Positions 32,429-40,116 of a stretch of 64,000 bases of DNA are shown here, in pieces. Location of the stretch: assembly GCF_041346945.1 (NCBI RefSeq), contig NZ_CP166850.1:3968001-4032000 (forward strand). Direction: 5' to 3'. Made by a program: the position numbers and the translations under genes. Below the pieces are notes generated by a model, which saw only the letters and a list, made by a program, of their open reading frames with translations, did not search any database and was not told where the DNA came from. The stretch is from Amycolatopsis sp. cg9. Its GTDB lineage: Bacteria; Actinomycetota; Actinomycetes; Mycobacteriales; Pseudonocardiaceae. Position 1 is the stretch's first letter. The number at the start of each line of letters is the position of its first letter.

Positions 32429-33267
32429 TCGGCGTCGAACTGCGGAAGCTCGCGCTGCGGCCACGGGTGTGGGTCAGCGTGCTGCTGCTGTGCCTGCTGC
32501 CCGCGGTCGTCGGCGTCTTCCTGGCCACGGCCGACTTCGCGCCGCCGCCCGGGCAGGGCGGGGCGTTCCTGTCGGCGGTGGTGAACGACGGCGCGCTGTA
32601 CCCGGCCGCGGCGCTCGCCCTGGTGCTGCCGCTGTTCCTGCCGATCGCGGTCGCGGTGGTCGCGGGCGACTCGGTCGCGGGCGAGGCGTCCGGCGGCACG
32701 CTGCGGTACCTGCTGGTGCGCCCGGTCGGCCGGACCCGGTTGCTGAGCGCGAAGCTGGTCGCGATCGCGGTCTACGTGACCGCGGCGATCGTCATCGTCG
32801 TGCTGACGTCACTGGTGCTCGGGGTGATCCTGTTCGGCACCGGCGGCAACCCCGGTGTCGCCGGGCCGGGCGGGCAGCCGACCGGCGTGACGTCGTTGTC
32901 CGGGCAGTCGCTCAGCTCGTCCGGGCTCGGGTTGCGGCTGCTCGGCGCGGTGTCCTACATCGTCCTGTCGATGCTCGGGTTCGCCGCCATCACGATGTTC
33001 CTGTCCACGGTGAGCGACTCGGCGCTGGGCGCCGCGCTGTGCGGGCTGGCCGTGCTGATCACCAGTTCGGTGCTGGAGACCCTGGACGCGGCCGCGTCCG
33101 TGAAGCCGTACCTGCCGACGCACTACTGGCTGTCCTGGATCGACTTCTTCCGCGATCCGGTGCTGTGGCGCAACATCGACCACGGGCTGCTGCTGCAGGC
33201 GGGCTACATCGTCGTGTTCTTCGCGGCGGCGTGGGCGAACTTCGCGACGAAGGACGTCACGAGCTGA
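32425..33267 (+). CDS. ABC transporter permease (ABC-2 type)
   Basis: 280 residues with six hydrophobic segments: VWVSVLLLCLLPAVVGVFL, ALYPAAALALVLPLFLPIAVAVV, VTAAIVIVVLTSLVLGVILF, LLGAVSYIVLSMLGFAAITMF, ALGAALCGLAVLITSSVL and a last near the C-terminus. GDSVAGEASGGTLRYLLVRPVGR is the coupling-helix region seen in ABC-2 permeases. It probably forms a dimer with two copies of the upstream ATPase. Its 3' end overlaps the lipase gene by 11 bp. Confidence 0.88.
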   Translation: MIGVELRKLALRPRVWVSVLLLCLLPAVVGVFLATADFAPPPGQGGAFLSAVVNDGALYPAAALALVLPLFLPIAVAVVAGDSVAGEASGGTLRYLLVRPVGRTRLLSAKLVAIAVYVTAAIVIVVLTSLVLGVILFGTGGNPGVAGPGGQPTGVTSLSGQSLSSSGLGLRLLGAVSYIVLSMLGFAAITMFLSTVSDSALGAALCGLAVLITSSVLETLDAAASVKPYLPTHYWLSWIDFFRDPVLWRNIDHGLLLQAGYIVVFFAAAWANFATKDVTS

Positions 33268-34063
33268 GGCAGTCCGTCGGCGCTTCGAGCGGCGTGGTGC
33301 CGAGGGCCTGCAGGACGATCTCGGTGACGGCGGGGTCGGTGGGCAGGTCGCCGTGCGTGGCGCCGTTGCCCGGGCACACCTGCTGGAGGGCGACGTTGAC
33401 GGCGCCGTCGACCCGGGCGGACTCCGGCGGGGTCACGGTCTCGTCCTGCTCGGTCCAGAGCGAAAGCCACGGCAGCGTCGCCGGGATCGGTTCCTTCGCG
33501 AGCTCCTGCAGGAGGGCGCTGCCCGGCGCCAGCTGGACGCACGCGGCCGGGCAGCCGCCCGGGACCAGCGCGCCGCCCGCCGCGGCGAGGCCGGTGCCGT
33601 GCATCGGCGCGCCGAGCGTGACGACCCGGCGGGCCTGGTGGTCACCGCCTTCGCGGCTGACCCACAGCCGGGCCACGACCCCGCCGGCGGAGTACCCGAC
33701 GACGTCGACCGAAGGCGCTCCCTGCGCGTACGCGCGTTCGACGGCTTCGGCCAGGACGGCGGCCTGTTCGACCAGGTCACCGGTGCCGTCGCCGGCCAGG
33801 GTGAGCACTTCGGTGCTGCGGCCGGTCGCCTGGCGGATCCGCGCGGCGAGCTCGTCCAGCGCGCCTTGGCCGCCGCCGTAGCCGGGGACGAGGAGCACCG
33901 GGCCGGGCCGGTTCTGGTCGGGGGTGCCGGCGTCCGGCGCGCTCTTCGTGCCGGAGGTGGCGATGGCGGTCGCGGCGACCGCGGCCACCACGACGACGGC
34001 GACGCTGTTCAGCATCAGACGTCGCCGTGGGCTGATGCCGCGCCACCAGGCCGTGATCCGCAC
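33257..34063 (-). CDS. Membrane-anchored or secreted alpha/beta lipase
   Basis: 268 residues. Basic N-terminus then LMLNSVAVVVVAAVAATAIA, a signal anchor or signal peptide. PVLLVPGYGGGQGALDELA matches the lipase/triacylglycerol hydrolase start, Ser nucleophile in VVGYSAGGVVARLW, and WTEQDETVTPP supplies the acid. A His sits in THGDLPTDP near the end. Cys residues pair in PGGCPAACVQL. It probably works outside the membrane on lipids or esters. GTG 34063 is the only plausible start; CATCAT six bases upstream suggests a leaderless message. It lies 18 bp downstream of the CHAT gene and may be co-transcribed with it. Confidence 0.75.
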   Translation of the reverse strand: MRITAWWRGISPRRRLMLNSVAVVVVAAVAATAIATSGTKSAPDAGTPDQNRPGPVLLVPGYGGGQGALDELAARIRQATGRSTEVLTLAGDGTGDLVEQAAVLAEAVERAYAQGAPSVDVVGYSAGGVVARLWVSREGGDHQARRVVTLGAPMHGTGLAAAGGALVPGGCPAACVQLAPGSALLQELAKEPIPATLPWLSLWTEQDETVTPPESARVDGAVNVALQQVCPGNGATHGDLPTDPAVTEIVLQALGTTPLEAPTDCLSS

Positions 34064-34081: not shown

Positions 34082-36661
34082 TCAGCCGGCGCCGTAGCAG
34101 ACGTAACTCGTGGCGGCGGGGGAGTCCGGGAGCTCCGACTGGGCGCGGGCGAGGGCCTCGGCCGGGGTGTGGCCCGCGGCGAGGTGGCGGTGGTGGCGGA
34201 CCATCAGGGCGCGGCCGGCGTCGTCGGGGATCGGGAGGACGGTCGCCACCAGGCTCGTCGTGCCCAGCGCCAGCAGCGCCGAGGCCAGGCCCAGCAGTTC
34301 GTCGCCCGCATGGATCGCCGAGCGGCCCGAGTCGCAGCCGGACAAAACCACCTGCCGCGGCGGGCGGGCCAGCCGTTCCAGGTCGTACACCGTGAGCGGC
34401 CCGTCGGCCAGGCGCAACGACGAGAACAGCGGGTTGTCGGTGCGGAACCGGCCGTGCGCCGCGATGTGGCCGAGCGCGGCGCCGTCGAGGGCGGCGAGCA
34501 CCGGCTCGGCCCGCGCGGTCCGGCCGGTGAACCGGCGGGCACCCGGGTAGCGGCGGGCCAGCGCGGCCACTTCGGCGGCGGCGTGCGGCAGCCCGGGCCC
34601 GGCCACGACGACGTGGTCGCCGCCCTCGGCGCGCGGCGCGGTCGCCGCGCGGTGCCAGAGCGCCGCGGACGGGGCGAGGGACACCGGGCGGCCGCGGCAG
34701 CCCGGCAGGACCGGCCACGGCAGCTCGTGCAGCCGCCCGGTCGGCACGACGACCAGGGGGCCGTCGCCGAGCGAGAGCGGGGCGAGCAGCAGCTCGTCGA
34801 GCCGGCGGGCGGTCCGCTCGACGAGGTCCCCGATCGAGCCGAGGCCGAACACCGCCCGCCGCAGCGCGAAGCGCAGCTCGTCGAGGCGTTCCGCGGTCTC
34901 GGCCGCCGGGCCCAACGCGTACCGCCGCAGCCGGCCGCCCGTGACGGCGAGCGCGGTCAGCCGCCCGTCCAGCTCCACGTACTCCACGAGCGTCGACGGT
35001 CCGAGCGCCGCGGCGAGCTCCGCGCGGGACGGGACGCGAGTGTCCGAAGTGGACACTCCGGTCGCGTGCCGGGCGCGGTCCCGCACCGCTTTCTCCAGTT
35101 CGGCCTGACGGCGCAGCAGGGTCCGCGCGTGGCCCGTCCCGGTGGCGAGGTCGACGGCGATCTGGCGCAGCGCGGCGAGGTCCGCGGCCAGGACTTCGTC
35201 GTCCGGCGGCCGGGCGGGCCGCAGCCGCAGCGCGCCGGCGTGCCGCCACTCCGCCCAGCGCAGCACGGCCTCCGGGTGCCCGGCCTCCGCGGCGAGCCGC
35301 AGCCCGAGCCCGGTCAGCTCGCTCGCGTGCCCGGACGCGTGGGCGCGCAGCTCGCTCGCCCCGAGCCCGGCGCGGAACCGGTCGACCACCCGGACCCCGG
35401 CGCGCAACGCGGCGTCCGCGCCCCGGCGGTCGCCGTGCACCAGGCGCAGCAACGCCGTCGCGTGCCAGGCACGGGCGCGCATCTCGGCCGGGCCGCCCCG
35501 CCCGGCCCGGCCGACGAACGCCAGCTCCGCCTTCGCGATCTCCGTGCGGCCCAGCTCGAGCGCCAGCGCCGCGACGATCAGCCGCGCGTCCAGGGCCGGC
35601 ACCACCCAGCCCGCCTCGGTCAGCGCCGCCGCCGTCCGCTGTCCCGACCGGAGCATCGCCGCGGTCCGCAGGCCGCTGTCGCGGCGGGCGCGCAGAGCGA
35701 GGTACCCGCCGAGCGCGGCCCAGCCGGGCCGGTCCTGCCGCGCCGCGGACCGCCGCGCCAGCGAGGCTTCGCGCAACGCCGTGCCCGGATCGCCGTCGAG
35801 CAGCGCGACCTTCGCCAGCAGCAGCCGCGCCTGCACGAGGTCGACGGCGTTGCGCCGCCGTCCGTAGTCGGCGACGGCGGTCGTAGCCGCTTCGCGCGCT
35901 TCGGCGATCAGGCGCACCGAGAGCAGCGCTTCGGCGCGCTCGATCGGCAGCAGGCCGGGATCGGTGCCCGCTTCGCGGTAGCGCGCGGCGGCTTCGTCGT
36001 AGGCGGTCAGCGCGGCCGGGACGTCGCCGCGCACGGTGGCGGCCAGCCCGCGGTTCTGCCACACCATCGCCGTCCGTCCGATGTGGCCGGTCGCGGCGAA
36101 CCCGCGTTCGGCGTGGCGCAGGTCGTCTTCGGCGCCCCGCCAGTCGCCGAGGCGGGCCAGCACGATGCTGCGGTTGGTGCGGATCGTCGCCTCGATCAGG
36201 TCGTCGCCACCCGCGGCCCGGAGGGTCTCGAGGGCGTCCGCGAACCCGGCGGCGGCGTCGCCGAACCGGCTGATTTCGGTGAGCACGACGGCCCGCTGCA
36301 TGCGCAGCCGCGCCGCCGCCTGCCCGGTCAGCTCGGGCATCGCGCGGTCGAGTTCGCGCAGGGCTTCGGCGGTGCGCCCGGTCAGCGTCAGGACGTAGCC
36401 GAGCACCCCGCGCGTCTGCGCGGCCCGCTCCCGCAGCCCGGCCCCGCCGGCCAGCCGGAGCGCGGCGCGCAACCGCGTTTCGGCGTCCGTCAGGTGCCCC
36501 ATGGACACCCCGGCGAGCCCGAGCGCGTGTTCGGCCACGGCGGCGGCCTCGGTCCGCCCGCCCGCTTCGGCGAGCGCGGCTTCGGCGAGCGCCCGCGCCT
36601 CGGCCGGCGCGGTGAAGGCGAGATCCGCGGCGGCGACGGCCTTGGCCAGCGCGTCGCTCAT
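34082..36661 (-). CDS. TPR-CHAT protease
   Basis: 859 residues. The first ~560 residues are Ala/Arg-rich helical repeats of TPR type (such as ALGLAGVSMGHLTDAETRLR and AALRLAGGAGLRERAAQTRG). The last ~280 are a CHAT caspase-like domain: ELRFALRRAVFGLGSIGD, then catalytic His736 in GHIAAHGRF and Cys776 in VVLSGCDSG, 40 residues apart, followed by GLASALLALGTTSLVATV. Both catalytic residues are present, so it is predicted active. TPRs usually sense or bind a partner. It is divergent from a subtilisin-like protease (92-bp gap), with an ECF sigma factor and its partner close by. Such clusters recall the TPR-CHAT/sigma arm of Craspase. Confidence 0.88.
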   Translation of the reverse strand: MSDALAKAVAAADLAFTAPAEARALAEAALAEAGGRTEAAAVAEHALGLAGVSMGHLTDAETRLRAALRLAGGAGLRERAAQTRGVLGYVLTLTGRTAEALRELDRAMPELTGQAAARLRMQRAVVLTEISRFGDAAAGFADALETLRAAGGDDLIEATIRTNRSIVLARLGDWRGAEDDLRHAERGFAATGHIGRTAMVWQNRGLAATVRGDVPAALTAYDEAAARYREAGTDPGLLPIERAEALLSVRLIAEAREAATTAVADYGRRRNAVDLVQARLLLAKVALLDGDPGTALREASLARRSAARQDRPGWAALGGYLALRARRDSGLRTAAMLRSGQRTAAALTEAGWVVPALDARLIVAALALELGRTEIAKAELAFVGRAGRGGPAEMRARAWHATALLRLVHGDRRGADAALRAGVRVVDRFRAGLGASELRAHASGHASELTGLGLRLAAEAGHPEAVLRWAEWRHAGALRLRPARPPDDEVLAADLAALRQIAVDLATGTGHARTLLRRQAELEKAVRDRARHATGVSTSDTRVPSRAELAAALGPSTLVEYVELDGRLTALAVTGGRLRRYALGPAAETAERLDELRFALRRAVFGLGSIGDLVERTARRLDELLLAPLSLGDGPLVVVPTGRLHELPWPVLPGCRGRPVSLAPSAALWHRAATAPRAEGGDHVVVAGPGLPHAAAEVAALARRYPGARRFTGRTARAEPVLAALDGAALGHIAAHGRFRTDNPLFSSLRLADGPLTVYDLERLARPPRQVVLSGCDSGRSAIHAGDELLGLASALLALGTTSLVATVLPIPDDAGRALMVRHHRHLAAGHTPAEALARAQSELPDSPAATSYVCYGAG

Positions 36662-36753
36662 CGCGGCTTGTGCCGGCCCCGGCCGGGGTGTATCAGCTGG
36701 AGGGGCTCGCGGATCGAGTAGCCGACCCGTTCACCCGTGATCGAGGGGGACAC

Positions 36754-37902
36754 ATGACGCGATACCGCCATCGAGCAGGCGAGCTGCTGGTCCATGCGGA
36801 CGATTGTGCCGCGCTCCGGCCCGAACTGGCAGGGGCCGGCTACCACCCGGCCGGGGCGACCGGCACCGTCCACCGGTTCGTCGGGACGCGGCCGGTGCCG
36901 GAGGTGCTGGCCGCGCTGCGCGGCCGCGGAGCGAGCCCGAACCACTTGTTCGGCCTGGACCGGATCATCTGGGGTGAACTGCGCCCGAAGCCCACGAACA
37001 AGACGCTGGATCCGGTGCTCGCTCCGGAGGTCGCGCCGCTGGTCGGGATGATCGACACCGGCGTCGTGCTGCACGAGGGCCGCCCGCACCCCTTCCTCGG
37101 CAACCGGGTGGTGTTCGACCCGGAGGACACTGCCCGGGTGGTGCGCGGCGAAGACGGGAACCCGGCCGGTTCCGCCGCGCACGGGACGTTCGTCGCCGGG
37201 GTGCTGCTGAAGCAGGTGCCGCCCGAGGTCCGCATCCGCGTGAAGGGGGTGATCGACGAGCAGAGCGGCGAAATCGAAGACCTGGCGGTCGCCAACGCCA
37301 TCGACGAGCTGCGCGAGGAGGGCATCACCTTGATCAACCTGTCCTTCTCGGGAGCGACCTGGGAGGACGAACCGCCGAAGGCGATCGAGGCGGCGTTGAG
37401 CAGGCTGCCCGCGGACTCGATCGTGATCGCCTCGGCCGGGAACCGGGCGAGCCGGCACCGGGTCTACCCGGCCGGCATCAAGTTCGAGGCCGCCGTGCCC
37501 GGCAGCGTCGACCGCAGCCACGTCCAGGTGATCGCGGTCGGCTCGGCCGACGCGTCGCAAGACGCGAACAAGCCGCTCGTCGCGGACTTCAGCAACTACG
37601 GGCCCTGGGTCTCGGCCTACGCGGACGGCGTGGACGTGCTCGGCCCGTACTTCCGGCCGGGCTACCCCACCGAGCCCGCCGGGTACAACGGGTATGCGGT
37701 CTGGAGCGGGACGTCCTTCTCCGCCGCCATCGTGACCGGGCAGATCGCGGCGGTCATGGCCAAGGGCGCCTCCGCGTTCGAGGCCGCCCACGCGGTGCTG
37801 CACCCGGAGGGCGCCGAGGAGCCGGTCACGGTTCGCGTCCAGGACTTGAACGGGGAAGCGCCCGTCCCGTACGTGGCGGGTGTGCGGGAGCCGGGCGTCT
37901 AG
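36754..37902 (+). CDS. Cytoplasmic subtilisin-like (S8) serine protease
   Basis: 382 residues; GAGGGGGA lies four bases before ATG 36754. All catalytic residues are visible: Asp101 (GMIDTGV), His143 (AAHGTFVAG), oxyanion Asn230 (IASAGN) and Ser321 (SGTSFSAA). There is no signal peptide and no classical propeptide; instead ~85 residues (ELLVHADDCAALRPEL, RFVGTRPVPEVLAALRG) form an N-terminal domain that may act as prodomain or docking module. An intracellular subtilase next to a CHAT protease and sigma factor suggests a proteolytic switch. Its stop shares CTAG (37899-37902) with the convergent sigma-partner gene. Confidence 0.9.
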   Translation: MTRYRHRAGELLVHADDCAALRPELAGAGYHPAGATGTVHRFVGTRPVPEVLAALRGRGASPNHLFGLDRIIWGELRPKPTNKTLDPVLAPEVAPLVGMIDTGVVLHEGRPHPFLGNRVVFDPEDTARVVRGEDGNPAGSAAHGTFVAGVLLKQVPPEVRIRVKGVIDEQSGEIEDLAVANAIDELREEGITLINLSFSGATWEDEPPKAIEAALSRLPADSIVIASAGNRASRHRVYPAGIKFEAAVPGSVDRSHVQVIAVGSADASQDANKPLVADFSNYGPWVSAYADGVDVLGPYFRPGYPTEPAGYNGYAVWSGTSFSAAIVTGQIAAVMAKGASAFEAAHAVLHPEGAEEPVTVRVQDLNGEAPVPYVAGVREPGV

Positions 37903-38342
37903 AGGCTCGCCCAGCCCGTGGTGACCGCCGTGCCGTCCGCGGCGGTCACCTTCACGCGCGTCGCTCCGCGTGGGAGCCCCGCCGCCGTGAACCAGCCCTC
38001 CGCGCCGATCGGGCGGACGTGCCGTTCGCCGGCCACCTCGATCACCGCTTCGCCCGTCGCGCCGGTGATCAAGCCGCGCAGGGAAACGCCGCCGTCCGCG
38101 TACTCCACCTGCAGCTCCACCGACACCCGCGCCGACGCGAACGACAGCAGCCGGACGTCCTCGGCCGCCGCGCGGACCGCGCCCGCTTCCGCGAGGTCGG
38201 AGTCGAAGGCCAGGTCCGCCAGTTCGGCGTCGGGATCGCGCAGGCTCAGCGCCGCCTTGGCCTGGCGCAGCACCAGGTCCGGTACCGGGTCCGCCTGGGC
38301 CGCGGCCGCGCGCAGGACTTCCATGAGTTCGTCGTCGGTCAT
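37899..38342 (-). CDS. Sigma-factor partner protein, probable regulator
   Basis: 147 residues, ATG 38342 overlapping the sigma factor stop (ATGA). The N-terminal half (DDELMEVLRAAAAQADPVP, DLVLRQAKAALSLRDPDAEL) is helical and acidic; the C-terminal half (VSVELQVEYADGGVSLRGL, EGWFTAAGLPRGATRVKV) looks like a beta-sandwich of the carboxypeptidase-regulatory type. I recall similar proteins encoded after sigma-70 genes in other actinomycetes, but none has a known function. Translational coupling suggests it binds the sigma factor, as anti-sigma factors do, although no zinc motif is present. It could be the substrate of the CHAT or S8 protease; that is inference. Confidence 0.7.
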   Translation of the reverse strand: MTDDELMEVLRAAAAQADPVPDLVLRQAKAALSLRDPDAELADLAFDSDLAEAGAVRAAAEDVRLLSFASARVSVELQVEYADGGVSLRGLITGATGEAVIEVAGERHVRPIGAEGWFTAAGLPRGATRVKVTAADGTAVTTGWASL

Positions 38343-38899
38343 GTCCGGTCCTCCGTCCCGAGCCCGGCCGCGCCGGCCCGCTCGCGCAGACGGCCGAGGC
38401 AGCGCTGCCGCGTCGGGCCGATGCTGCCGACCGGCATGTCGAGGGCGGCCGACACCTCCGCGTACGACGGCGGGGGCGTGGCCATGAGCGCGCGCAGCAG
38501 CCGGCGGCAGTGCTCCGGCAACGCGGCCAGCGCGCGCCAGAGCGTGGCGTCGCGTTCGTCCAGCAGCACCGCCGCGTCGACCGGCTCGCCCGGCGCCGGT
38601 TCGTTCTGCCAGACGTGGTCGTCGGCCGGGCGTTCCCGTTCGCCGCGGCGGAGCTGGCGGAGGCACTCGTGGCGGGTGGTGGTGCCCAGCCAGCCGGGCA
38701 GCCGTTCCGGATCCTTGATGCGGCCGAGGTTTTCGATCAGCTTCAGCCACACCGTCTGGACGACGTCGGCCGCGTCGGCCTCGGAAAGCCGGTGGGCGCG
38801 GGCGATCGACCAGAGCAGGCTCGCGTACCGCTCGACGAGCGCGTCCCAAGCCGCCTGGTCGCCGCGCGCGGCCGCTGAGAGCAGGGTCGTGGTGTCCAC
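38339..38899 (-). CDS. ECF-type sigma-70 factor
   Basis: 186 residues from GTG 38899, with AGGGGAGG four bases upstream. Region 2: DALVERYASLLWSIARAH, LSEADAADVVQTVWLKLIEN (core binding and -10 melting). Region 4: ALPEHCRRLLRALMATPPP, SYAEVSAALDMPVGSIG, PTRQRCLGRLRE. It should direct RNA polymerase to a small regulon. An alternative start, ATG 38959, also has AAGGAG seven bases away and would add 20 residues that look non-conserved. Translated with its partner gene by ATGA overlap. Close to the subtilase and TPR-CHAT genes. Its own target promoters cannot be read here. Confidence 0.88.
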   Translation of the reverse strand: MDTTTLLSAAARGDQAAWDALVERYASLLWSIARAHRLSEADAADVVQTVWLKLIENLGRIKDPERLPGWLGTTTRHECLRQLRRGERERPADDHVWQNEPAPGEPVDAAVLLDERDATLWRALAALPEHCRRLLRALMATPPPSYAEVSAALDMPVGSIGPTRQRCLGRLRERAGAAGLGTEDRT

Positions 38900-39097: not shown

Positions 39098-39277
39098 ATG
39101 GTGTTCGTGCTGCTCGTGTGGGGACTGGTGGCGTGCGGGCAGCCGGTGGACGGCCGGGCGGTGCCCGTCCCGGCGCGGTCCGGGGTGCCCGGGTGCGCGT
39201 TGCTCGGGGACACGCCGGTGGTGCCGGGCGGGCTTCAGACCTTCTCGGAAACCCGGTGGGTGGCCGGCGCGGGCTGA
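39098..39277 (+). CDS. Possible small lipoprotein
   Basis: 59 residues. MVFVLLVWGLVACGQPVDG is a short signal with lipobox Cys13, as in actinomycete lipoproteins; the mature part is only ~47 residues (VPVPARSGVPGC and on) with no domain. The end overlaps the EamA gene by 43 bp on the opposite strand. There is no clear ribosome site, though GTG 39089 and GTG 39044 are in frame. It might be a remnant of a longer lipoprotein cut short next to the transporter. Nothing else is seen in 38960-39234. Confidence 0.4.
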   Translation: MVFVLLVWGLVACGQPVDGRAVPVPARSGVPGCALLGDTPVVPGGLQTFSETRWVAGAG

Positions 39278-40116
39278 GACCGGCGCTGGGCGGCCACGAC
39301 GGCGGCGAGCACGACCGCCGCGCCCAGCAGCTGCCACGGGGTCAGCCGCTGGCCGAGGACGAGCCAGCCGAGCAGCGTCGCGACGACCGGGCTCAGCAGC
39401 CCGAGGAACGTCACGTGCGTGGCCGTCAGCGCGCGGATCCCGCGGAACCACAAGGCGTACGCGAACGCGGCGCCGATCAGCGAGAGGTAGGCGTAGCCCG
39501 CGAGGTTCGCGCCGGACAGCGACGACGGTGGCGCGCCTTCGACGGCCAGCGCGACCGGCACGAGCACCAGGCCGCCCGCGACGAGCTGCCAGCCGGTCGT
39601 CGCCAGCAGGGGTGCGGGAGACGTCCAGCGCTTGCTGAGCACGACGCCGGTGGCCATCACGACCGCGCCGCCGGCCGCGGCGGCGACCCCGATCGCGTCG
39701 AGCCGGGCGTCGGACTGCAGCACCAGCAGGCTGACGCCGACGACCCCGGCGACGCCCGCGAGCACGGTCCGCGTGGTCAGGCGTTCGCCGAGCAGCCCGG
39801 TCGACAGACCGGCCACGAGCAGCGGCTGCAGCGCGCCGAGGGTGGCGGCGACCCCGCCGGGCAGCCGGTAGGCGGCGACGAACAGCAGCGCGAGGAAGGC
39901 GCCGATGTTGAGCGTGCCGAGCACCAGCGAGCGCCACCACCAGTCGCCCTTCGGCAGCCGCCGGGTGAGGGCGACGAGCAGCAGCCCGGCGGGCAGTGCC
40001 CGGACGACCGCGGCGAGCAGCGGGCGGTCGGGTGGCAGGAACTCGGTCGTGACGAGGTAGGTGGAGCCCCAGATCGCGGGGGCCAGCGCGGTGGCGAGGA
40101 GCTGTTTGTTTAGCAC
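39235..40116 (-). CDS. EamA-family transporter (DMT superfamily)
   Basis: 293 residues with ten hydrophobic segments in two EamA halves. First half: LAPAIWGSTYLVTTEFLPP, the Pro/Arg helix LLAAVVRALPAGLL, GGVAATLGALQPLLVAGLS. Second half: LAGYAYLSLIGAAFAYALW, THVTFLGLLSPVVATLLGW. These exporters move amino acids, nucleotides or metabolites out. The GTG start 40116 lies inside a TTTAGCACTAAG operator copy. Divergent from a MarR regulator across ~75 bp with three matching operators, so MarR repression is likely. Cargo unknown. Confidence 0.88.
   Translation of the reverse strand: MLNKQLLATALAPAIWGSTYLVTTEFLPPDRPLLAAVVRALPAGLLLVALTRRLPKGDWWWRSLVLGTLNIGAFLALLFVAAYRLPGGVAATLGALQPLLVAGLSTGLLGERLTTRTVLAGVAGVVGVSLLVLQSDARLDAIGVAAAAGGAVVMATGVVLSKRWTSPAPLLATTGWQLVAGGLVLVPVALAVEGAPPSSLSGANLAGYAYLSLIGAAFAYALWFRGIRALTATHVTFLGLLSPVVATLLGWLVLGQRLTPWQLLGAAVVLAAVVAAQRRSQPAPATHRVSEKV

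Follow-up and report, generated by a model that had tools for sequence, protein, structure and literature searches.

A 64,000-nucleotide stretch of the genome of Amycolatopsis sp. cg9 (contig NZ_CP166850.1, positions 3,968,001 to 4,032,000; here called the window) carries neighbouring genes for a TPR-CHAT protease, a subtilisin-like S8 protease, an extracytoplasmic function (ECF) sigma factor, and a small partner protein of that sigma factor. There is strong support for this set of proteases, sigma, and partner being a functional unit. Our leading, still tentative, reading is that the unit as a whole works as a soluble proteolytic switch, in which CHAT would sense a signal, cut the partner at residue Arg57, and free sigma. 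The computed observations that bear on this reading are the conservation of the set, the co-distribution of partner and CHAT, an invariant arginine in a linker of the partner, natural fusions, and a promoter motif. The module is real and had been noticed previously; newly proposed here are the protein that is cut, the site of the cut, the promoter, and unequal roles for the two proteases. The elements of the locus, in window coordinates, are as follows.

34082-36661, minus strand: TPR-CHAT protease gene, 859 amino acids; Pfam CHAT (PF12770) at E 4.9e-37; His736 and Cys776.
36687..36719, plus strand: putative sigma-dependent promoter of the S8 gene, TGTATCAG-N14-GGATCG, a variant of the module motif, 14.7 bits.
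36754-37902, plus strand: S8 (subtilisin-like) protease gene, 382 amino acids; Peptidase_S8 (PF00082) at E 1.5e-22; Asp101/His143/Ser321.
37899-38342, minus strand: partner gene, 147 amino acids; candidate sigma antagonist and protease substrate.
38172..38174, minus strand: Arg57 codon of the partner gene, a candidate site of cleavage (its position was calculated from the gene start and confirmed on the sequence).
38339-38899, minus strand: ECF sigma factor gene, 186 amino acids; TIGR02937 at E 2.1e-19; coupled to the partner gene (ATGA).

The initial annotation had described these four genes within 4.8 kb, and their coordinates and strands, the ATGA overlap, and the 147-residue partner are confirmed, as is the presence in the window proteins of the catalytic residues that it had named for CHAT and S8. 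The sigma stop and the partner start overlap by 4 nt; the S8 and partner genes are convergent, with a 4-nt overlap, and the CHAT and S8 genes diverge across a 92-bp gap. The genome that contains the window measures 10.6 Mb and has 7 CHAT matches, which by our own arithmetic gives a chance of about 1% that any CHAT gene lies within 8 kb of a given gene. This genome has three partners (that of the window and those at 1816615 and 2937189) and four module-type CHAT genes. A second complete set is found at G000:C1:1813811-1818394 (L070, L039), and a third, lone sigma-partner pair at G000:C1:2937189-2937590 (L071), with a promoter site of 23.8 bits. Among the matches listed, from which the nearest records may be left out, the closest named sigma is that of Amycolatopsis eburnea (95% identity).

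Similar neighbours in other actinomycetes had been mentioned in that annotation, and a search for co-occurrence bears this out. Home-made profiles were run on two sets of loci, and the families found within 8 kb were counted. The partner-anchored set consists of 80 loci hand-picked from more than 150 places by score and range of genera, including two further copies in the window's own genome; the sigma-anchored set consists of 80 of the 554 loci from a sigma search, includes many from Lentzea, and shares some genomes with the first. All four families are present in 54/80 partner-anchored and 48/80 sigma-anchored loci. The remaining partner-anchored loci have sigma and partner only (14), these two together with CHAT (8) or with S8 (2), or, lacking sigma, partner with S8 and CHAT (1) or with S8 (1); the remaining sigma-anchored loci have sigma and partner (14), sigma alone (7), or sigma and partner together with S8 (6) or with CHAT (5). 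(Contig ends account for part of the missing members in both sets.) The partner lies directly 3' of sigma on the same strand in 78/80 partner-anchored and 71/80 sigma-anchored loci, and ATGA coupling is seen in 74 of 151 sigma-partner pairs if the start is taken to be the start codon closest to that position. By record titles, complete sets occur in Acidimicrobiia and Thermoleophilia as well as in Actinomycetes (L164, L187, and L130, for example).

Across genomes, the partner is distributed like CHAT. Of one and the same set of 394 genomes of the class, 130 are matched by the partner profile and 127 by the module CHAT profile (E <= 1e-40); both are found in 122 genomes, the partner only in 8, CHAT only in 5, and neither in 259 (phi 0.93, Fisher p 1e-84, uncorrected for kinship). 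These genome counts are lower bounds, because only the ten best candidates per genome were scored for the partner and the seven best for CHAT. Five of the eight partner-only genomes (G175, G275, G494, G498, G517) have matches weaker than E 1e-6, two others (G401, G393) are 75% and 81% complete, and G235 is neither weakly matched nor incomplete.

The association also holds where the partner lies away from CHAT. There are 13 such split genomes, ten in which the locus was read and contains sigma and partner alone, and three (G366, G303, G384) judged to be split because the two lie on different contigs. All 13 have one module-type CHAT elsewhere, to which the module profile gives 244-282 bits; six CHAT proteins that belong to other types, from the split genomes and the window's own, score 30-56 bits or give no match. 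A module-type S8 adjoins the trans CHAT in 13/13 split genomes, and in three of them (L294, L296, L297) two tandem module-type S8 genes stand next to CHAT. In 12 further genomes without CHAT at the locus (four with a local S8, two near contig ends), module CHAT is present in trans in 11 (E 1e-30). In Dactylosporangium (L154, L155), an FHA/ABC transporter gene occupies the place where CHAT usually sits, and module CHAT is found elsewhere in the genome; the idea that another sensor replaces CHAT in this genus is rejected, given the nature of that neighbour and the CHAT in trans. Taken together, locus conservation, partner-CHAT co-distribution, and the split systems reject a chance neighbourhood.

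The two proteases are unequal, in that CHAT tracks the partner closely and S8 is less strict. Eight partner-anchored loci have sigma, partner, and CHAT with no local S8, and module-type S8 is missing from 6/6 of the genomes tested among them: four give no S8 match at E 1e-20, and two have only subtilases of about 80 bits, as unrelated ones do. In control searches, three genomes with a local S8 were recovered at 168-310 bits. Since S8 is lost in the tested genomes while CHAT is kept, the core consists of sigma, partner, and CHAT, and S8 is a frequent addition. The signalling set of two proteases, sigma, and partner that the initial annotation had put forward stands as a functional unit, but not with its proteases on an equal footing. 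In Saccharothrix sp. ALI-22-I (L139, 9062-10489), the S8 and CHAT frames both lack their N-terminal parts beside the divergent gap that they share, which looks like a single deletion that took away both protease starts; sigma and partner are intact.

Insight into what CHAT might act on comes from the partner. From 158 matches, removal of short and near-identical sequences leaves 126, and the partner of the window brings the alignment to 127. Arg57 is the best-conserved residue (125/127), followed by G116 (96%), F118 (95%), and P21, F68, and G90 (94% each). In 83% it is followed by G, S, or A; between R57 and F68 the spacing ranges over 7 to 21 residues, and the sequence around R57 varies. A model of the window partner (45 sequences; mean predicted local distance difference test score, pLDDT, 84; predicted template modelling score, pTM, 0.58) has helices at 3-16 and 22-33, a less certain one at 37-52, and a beta-sandwich at 63-147 with block means of pLDDT 90-98. 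Confidence in the model is lowest at 47-49 and 52-58, and the linker 52-58 has pLDDT <50. Because aligners may gather arginines in a gappy region, the linkers were shuffled and realigned in eight runs; the best Arg column then holds 16-22 of 127 sequences versus the real 125, and on this ground an artefact of alignment is rejected as the source of R57. A flexible linker with an invariant arginine looks like a protease site, and we infer, short of proof, that R57 is a candidate cut site; its position in a low-confidence linker gives sequence support to the partner as the protein that is cut.

Natural fusions retain this arginine. Three loci of one genus, Kibdelosporangium, have sigma and the beta-sandwich in a single frame, and a database search finds further fusions (P0051 from Kibdelosporangium aridum and others). 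The linker Arg is present in 10/10 aligned fusion records (P0051-P0059, P0061), followed by S, G, or N; two of the ten are without the N-terminal sigma part, and because apparently one lineage is involved, the records are not ten independent cases. A model of P0051 places the Arg, residue 195, in a segment (169-198) with pLDDT <50; the arrangement of domains in this model is uninformative because its mean pLDDT is 74 and its pTM 0.32. The fusions resemble the module in having a related sigma, the same beta-sandwich, and the linker Arg; they differ in being one polypeptide from which the helical head is mostly gone. Coupled translation and these fusions show a partnership between sigma and partner, not its sign, and the partner could be a positive factor or adaptor, either with a cut head that helps sigma or with a beta-sandwich that only recruits CHAT to sigma. 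We consider this improbable; the closest worked case, the sigma-bound protein Csx30, is an inhibitor (PMC10028731), which by analogy speaks for the partner as an antagonist.

Both proteases keep their catalytic residues. The CHAT His and Cys are kept in 116/116 covering matches (117 in all), and the S8 Asp, His, and Ser in 111/111, 112/112, and 112/112 where covered (113 matches in all, shortened ones set aside), so that the loss of catalytic residues in homologues, which the initial annotation had named as a test, is not seen. S8 had been said to have no signal peptide, in agreement with which a hydropathy scan finds no N-terminal hydrophobic segment in the S8 of the window and one in 0/92 of its relatives. 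For CHAT, hydropathy exceeds 1.6 over 19 residues somewhere in 72/109 proteins, and such stretches are taken as buried core. The CHAT residue Asp813, 37 residues past Cys776, is D in 92% of 98 sequences; an Asp near this position presumably forms the S1 pocket in separase, and we take CHAT to belong to clan CD. In this clan, the families clostripain, paracaspase, metacaspase, gingipain, separase, and PrtH cut after Arg (PMC4357240). The CHAT sequence has no match among PDB chains up to E 0.01. Judged by matches over most of the protein, the set does not qualify as a PADLOC defence system: CHAT matches BovA over 76 residues only, S8 matches a subtilase model at E 3.7e-9, and partner and sigma have no matches there.

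A strand-specific promoter motif stands before sigma and often before S8, and never directly before CHAT. Counts of dyads 5' of 119 non-redundant sigma or S8-sigma units give GTATC-N16-GCTC 18 times, versus 0 on the opposite strand. A weight matrix built from 36 sites finds 134 sites above 18 bits in 160 loci, training sites included, and ten column-permuted matrices find a mean of 4.9 and at most 13 in the same loci. With training on one half and testing on the other, 55/119 regions exceed 16 bits versus 3/119 on the opposite strand. These held-out, opposite-strand, and column-permuted controls rule out a strand-neutral effect of composition. Among 73 S8-sigma operons, a site lies 5' of S8 in 30 and between S8 and sigma in 18; among 36 loci with a separate S8, there is an S8 site in 11 and a sigma site in 19. 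The variant site before the S8 gene of the window is among three such sites in its genome (control, 1), and three of four Amycolatopsis relatives score 13.1 (L130), 19.3 (L131), and 17.3 bits (L165) before S8, the stretch of the fourth, L132, being without S8. Before the sigma gene of the window, the weight matrix finds no site (4.1 bits); by eye, a weak GTATT-N17-ATCG precedes sigma and is common to L130, L131, and L132.

The occurrence of the motif before S8 would also fit a scheme in which the proteases are the output, that is, in which the sigma-partner pair answers some other signal and switches on S8, plus CHAT in loci where the operon includes it, for use on other targets. CHAT lies 3' of the partner on the same strand in 31 loci and may there be read from the sigma promoter. 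Against this quite improbable scheme, CHAT has no motif site of its own in any of the 110 cases scored (0/79 separate genes and 0/31 after the partner; six unscored), CHAT is kept where S8 is lost, and the linker Arg is left unexplained.

Genome-wide, the motif is rare. TGTATCASN{15,16}CTC gives 52 sites in 12 genomes versus 29 for the reversed pattern, and TGTATCAN{14,17}CTC gives 2 sites versus 3 in the window's own genome. These counts do not support a large sigma regulon, and because of this rarity the regulon looks small and local. Strong sites are found in front of genes for LuxR-type ATPases (L096:1353-3176, L121:8597-11278) and a HopA1-domain protein (L120:4466-5398), which are possible outputs of the switch. 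A protein of 220-250 residues is encoded directly behind CHAT in L206 (3262-3993), L203 (3174-3905), L152 (3273-4028), and also L143 and L156; a module-type promoter of its own precedes it in L206, L203, and L152, and in L206 it has a C-terminal carboxypeptidase-regulatory-like domain just below the Pfam cut-off. This protein could be an effector or another substrate of CHAT. In the window, the flanking genes (33257-34063 and 39235-40116) encode an alpha/beta hydrolase and an EamA transporter, and a link to the module was not seen.

In the proposed mechanism, the ECF sigma would be made together with its partner, which would hold it inactive; the partner probably binds sigma with its helical head and probably docks the protease with its beta-sandwich. 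An intracellular signal would be sensed by the TPR array of CHAT, and active CHAT would cut the partner after Arg57 in the linker, parting the head from the beta-sandwich and so freeing sigma. From TGTATCAG-N15/16-CTC promoters, free sigma could then transcribe the operon that encodes it and, in many species, also S8 plus one or a few nearby genes, with positive feedback. S8 would be a later or accessory protease. Binding of partner to sigma, inhibition, cutting, the identity of the cutter, and the signal are steps that we infer.

Several points weigh against this mechanism. Low confidence in the partner model extends across about residues 31-60 and is not limited to R57, which also makes the third helix (37-52) uncertain. 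R57 is retained in 31/33 partners without a local CHAT, and nearly all of the genomes searched among these have a CHAT in trans. A contact of R57 with sigma could also account for its conservation. Other families of clan CD favour Asp, Asn, or Leu (PMC4357240), and S8 instead of CHAT might be the cutter. In the CRISPR-linked CASP system, the protein cut by Csx29 is Csx30, an inhibitor that binds CASP-sigma, and the system's own locus carries sigma motifs (PMC10028731). Csx29, the one CHAT protease with a known substrate, cuts between Csx30 residues 427 and 429, not at an Arg, and alanine substitutions in Csx30 revealed no essential residue, the size of the loop being what mattered (PMC10028731). 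This mutagenesis and the wide low-confidence stretch of the model are the reason that cutting at R57 is put forward with reduced confidence. Geodermatophilus siccatus has sigma and partner, and module CHAT is not found in its genome at E 1e-30; sigma genes of the group studied here, plus two partner genes, are present in this species (L191, L199). The co-distribution statistics leave kinship uncorrected. S8 as a universal target of sigma is unsupported by the split genomes, in which the trans S8 has a site in 0/12 (family f22) and in 1/1 (G177). Searched against Pfam and NCBIfam up to E 1, the partner matches none of the known anti-sigma families, and a fold search gives weak matches only, the best in the PDB being CrdA at E 2.5e-3, too weak for use.

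Some of these points could be turned into a different account of R57, in which it is conserved for sigma binding or for folding in the complex, there is no cleavage site, and regulation occurs by partner switching. Contacts in a complex are beyond the reach of monomer models, the Arg is kept in pairs without a local CHAT, and Csx29 needs no particular substrate residue. We regard this account as very unlikely, since the spacing of R57 to F68 and its surroundings vary, the linker Arg is kept in fusions that are missing most of the helical head, and few genomes have a partner but no CHAT.

A further alternative would leave the partner aside and have the proteases act on sigma itself, degrading it at rest and sparing it under stress, without an anti-sigma factor taking part. 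Control of this kind has been proposed in the literature for the sigma group ECF54 (PMC8999054), and it agrees with the conserved proteases that adjoin sigma and with a partner that matches no known anti-sigma family. It is nevertheless unlikely, because it leaves unexplained why the partner is distributed like CHAT, why its linker has an invariant Arg, and why the fusions keep one. A reading of the partner as a peptidase is likewise unsupported. A source gives two of its close relatives the name 'Carboxypeptidase regula...', and the window partner meets Pfam CarboxypepD_reg at E 0.033, under the cut-off; no peptidase match and no NCBIfam match is found, and the model consists of helices and a beta-sandwich. 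The 'carboxypeptidase' of ECF54 is probably this partner. A simple hydropathy scan detects a transmembrane-like stretch in 0/76 partners, and the partner looks soluble.

The initial annotation had given no described function for such neighbourhoods, which does not hold: for ECF54, proteolytic control has been proposed from carboxypeptidase, subtilase, and CHAT domains in the context (PMC8999054, citing Casas-Pastor 2021 and Huang 2015). ECF54 is an actinobacterial ECF sigma group with a context of CHAT, subtilase, and a protein annotated as carboxypeptidase, and the same context is found here; the published example is from the same genus as Geodermatophilus siccatus. No ECF group model is among the NCBIfam matches of the window sigma. 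The review lists ECF54 among groups without an anti-sigma factor, gives proteolytic control from genomic context alone, and has the proteolysis act on sigma, whereas here the partner, with its invariant linker Arg, is the likelier target. In the open-access literature, no published account of the partner, its linker, or its promoter was found. What can now be named is one residue (partner Arg57), a first protease (CHAT), a promoter, and natural fusions and split systems that serve as controls.

A comparison with Craspase had also been drawn at the outset, and its likeness in logic stands, but the CHAT of the window is not Csx29 (NF041237, 12.2 bits versus a cut-off of 300). Type III-E CASP/Craspase (Cas7-11, Csx29, Csx30, CASP-sigma) resembles the module in having a TPR-CHAT protease and an ECF sigma, a sigma partner made of two domains and a flexible region, and promoter motifs at the system's own locus (PMC10028731). 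It differs in that here a subtilase is present and there is no adjoining CRISPR array; in agreement with the initial annotation, no CRISPR-like array was found at 20-55 kb of the window, where repeats are in two copies only (no search was aimed at Cas7-11). The window partner, having no NCBIfam match, is set beside Csx30 by description and not by direct comparison. The likeness to CASP would lie in logic, membership of its families failing where tested. The proteolysis of membrane anti-sigma factors of the RseA/RsiW type (named in PMC10028731) is similar in that an antagonist of sigma is destroyed; those antagonists are membrane-bound, whereas the partner here looks soluble. A shade more cautiously than for the switch as such, we propose that a CRISPR-independent, soluble TPR-CHAT/sigma switch exists in several classes of Actinomycetota, in which CHAT would cut a sigma antagonist at an invariant linker arginine. 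If this is true, TPR-CHAT proteases outside CRISPR systems also cut sigma partners, and caspase-like proteases act upstream of transcription in ordinary bacteria, which would bear on the roles of actinobacterial CHAT proteases and on the origin of the signalling arm of Craspase. The logic would then be a general one of signalling, of which the CRISPR-linked sigma arm of CASP is one recruited version.

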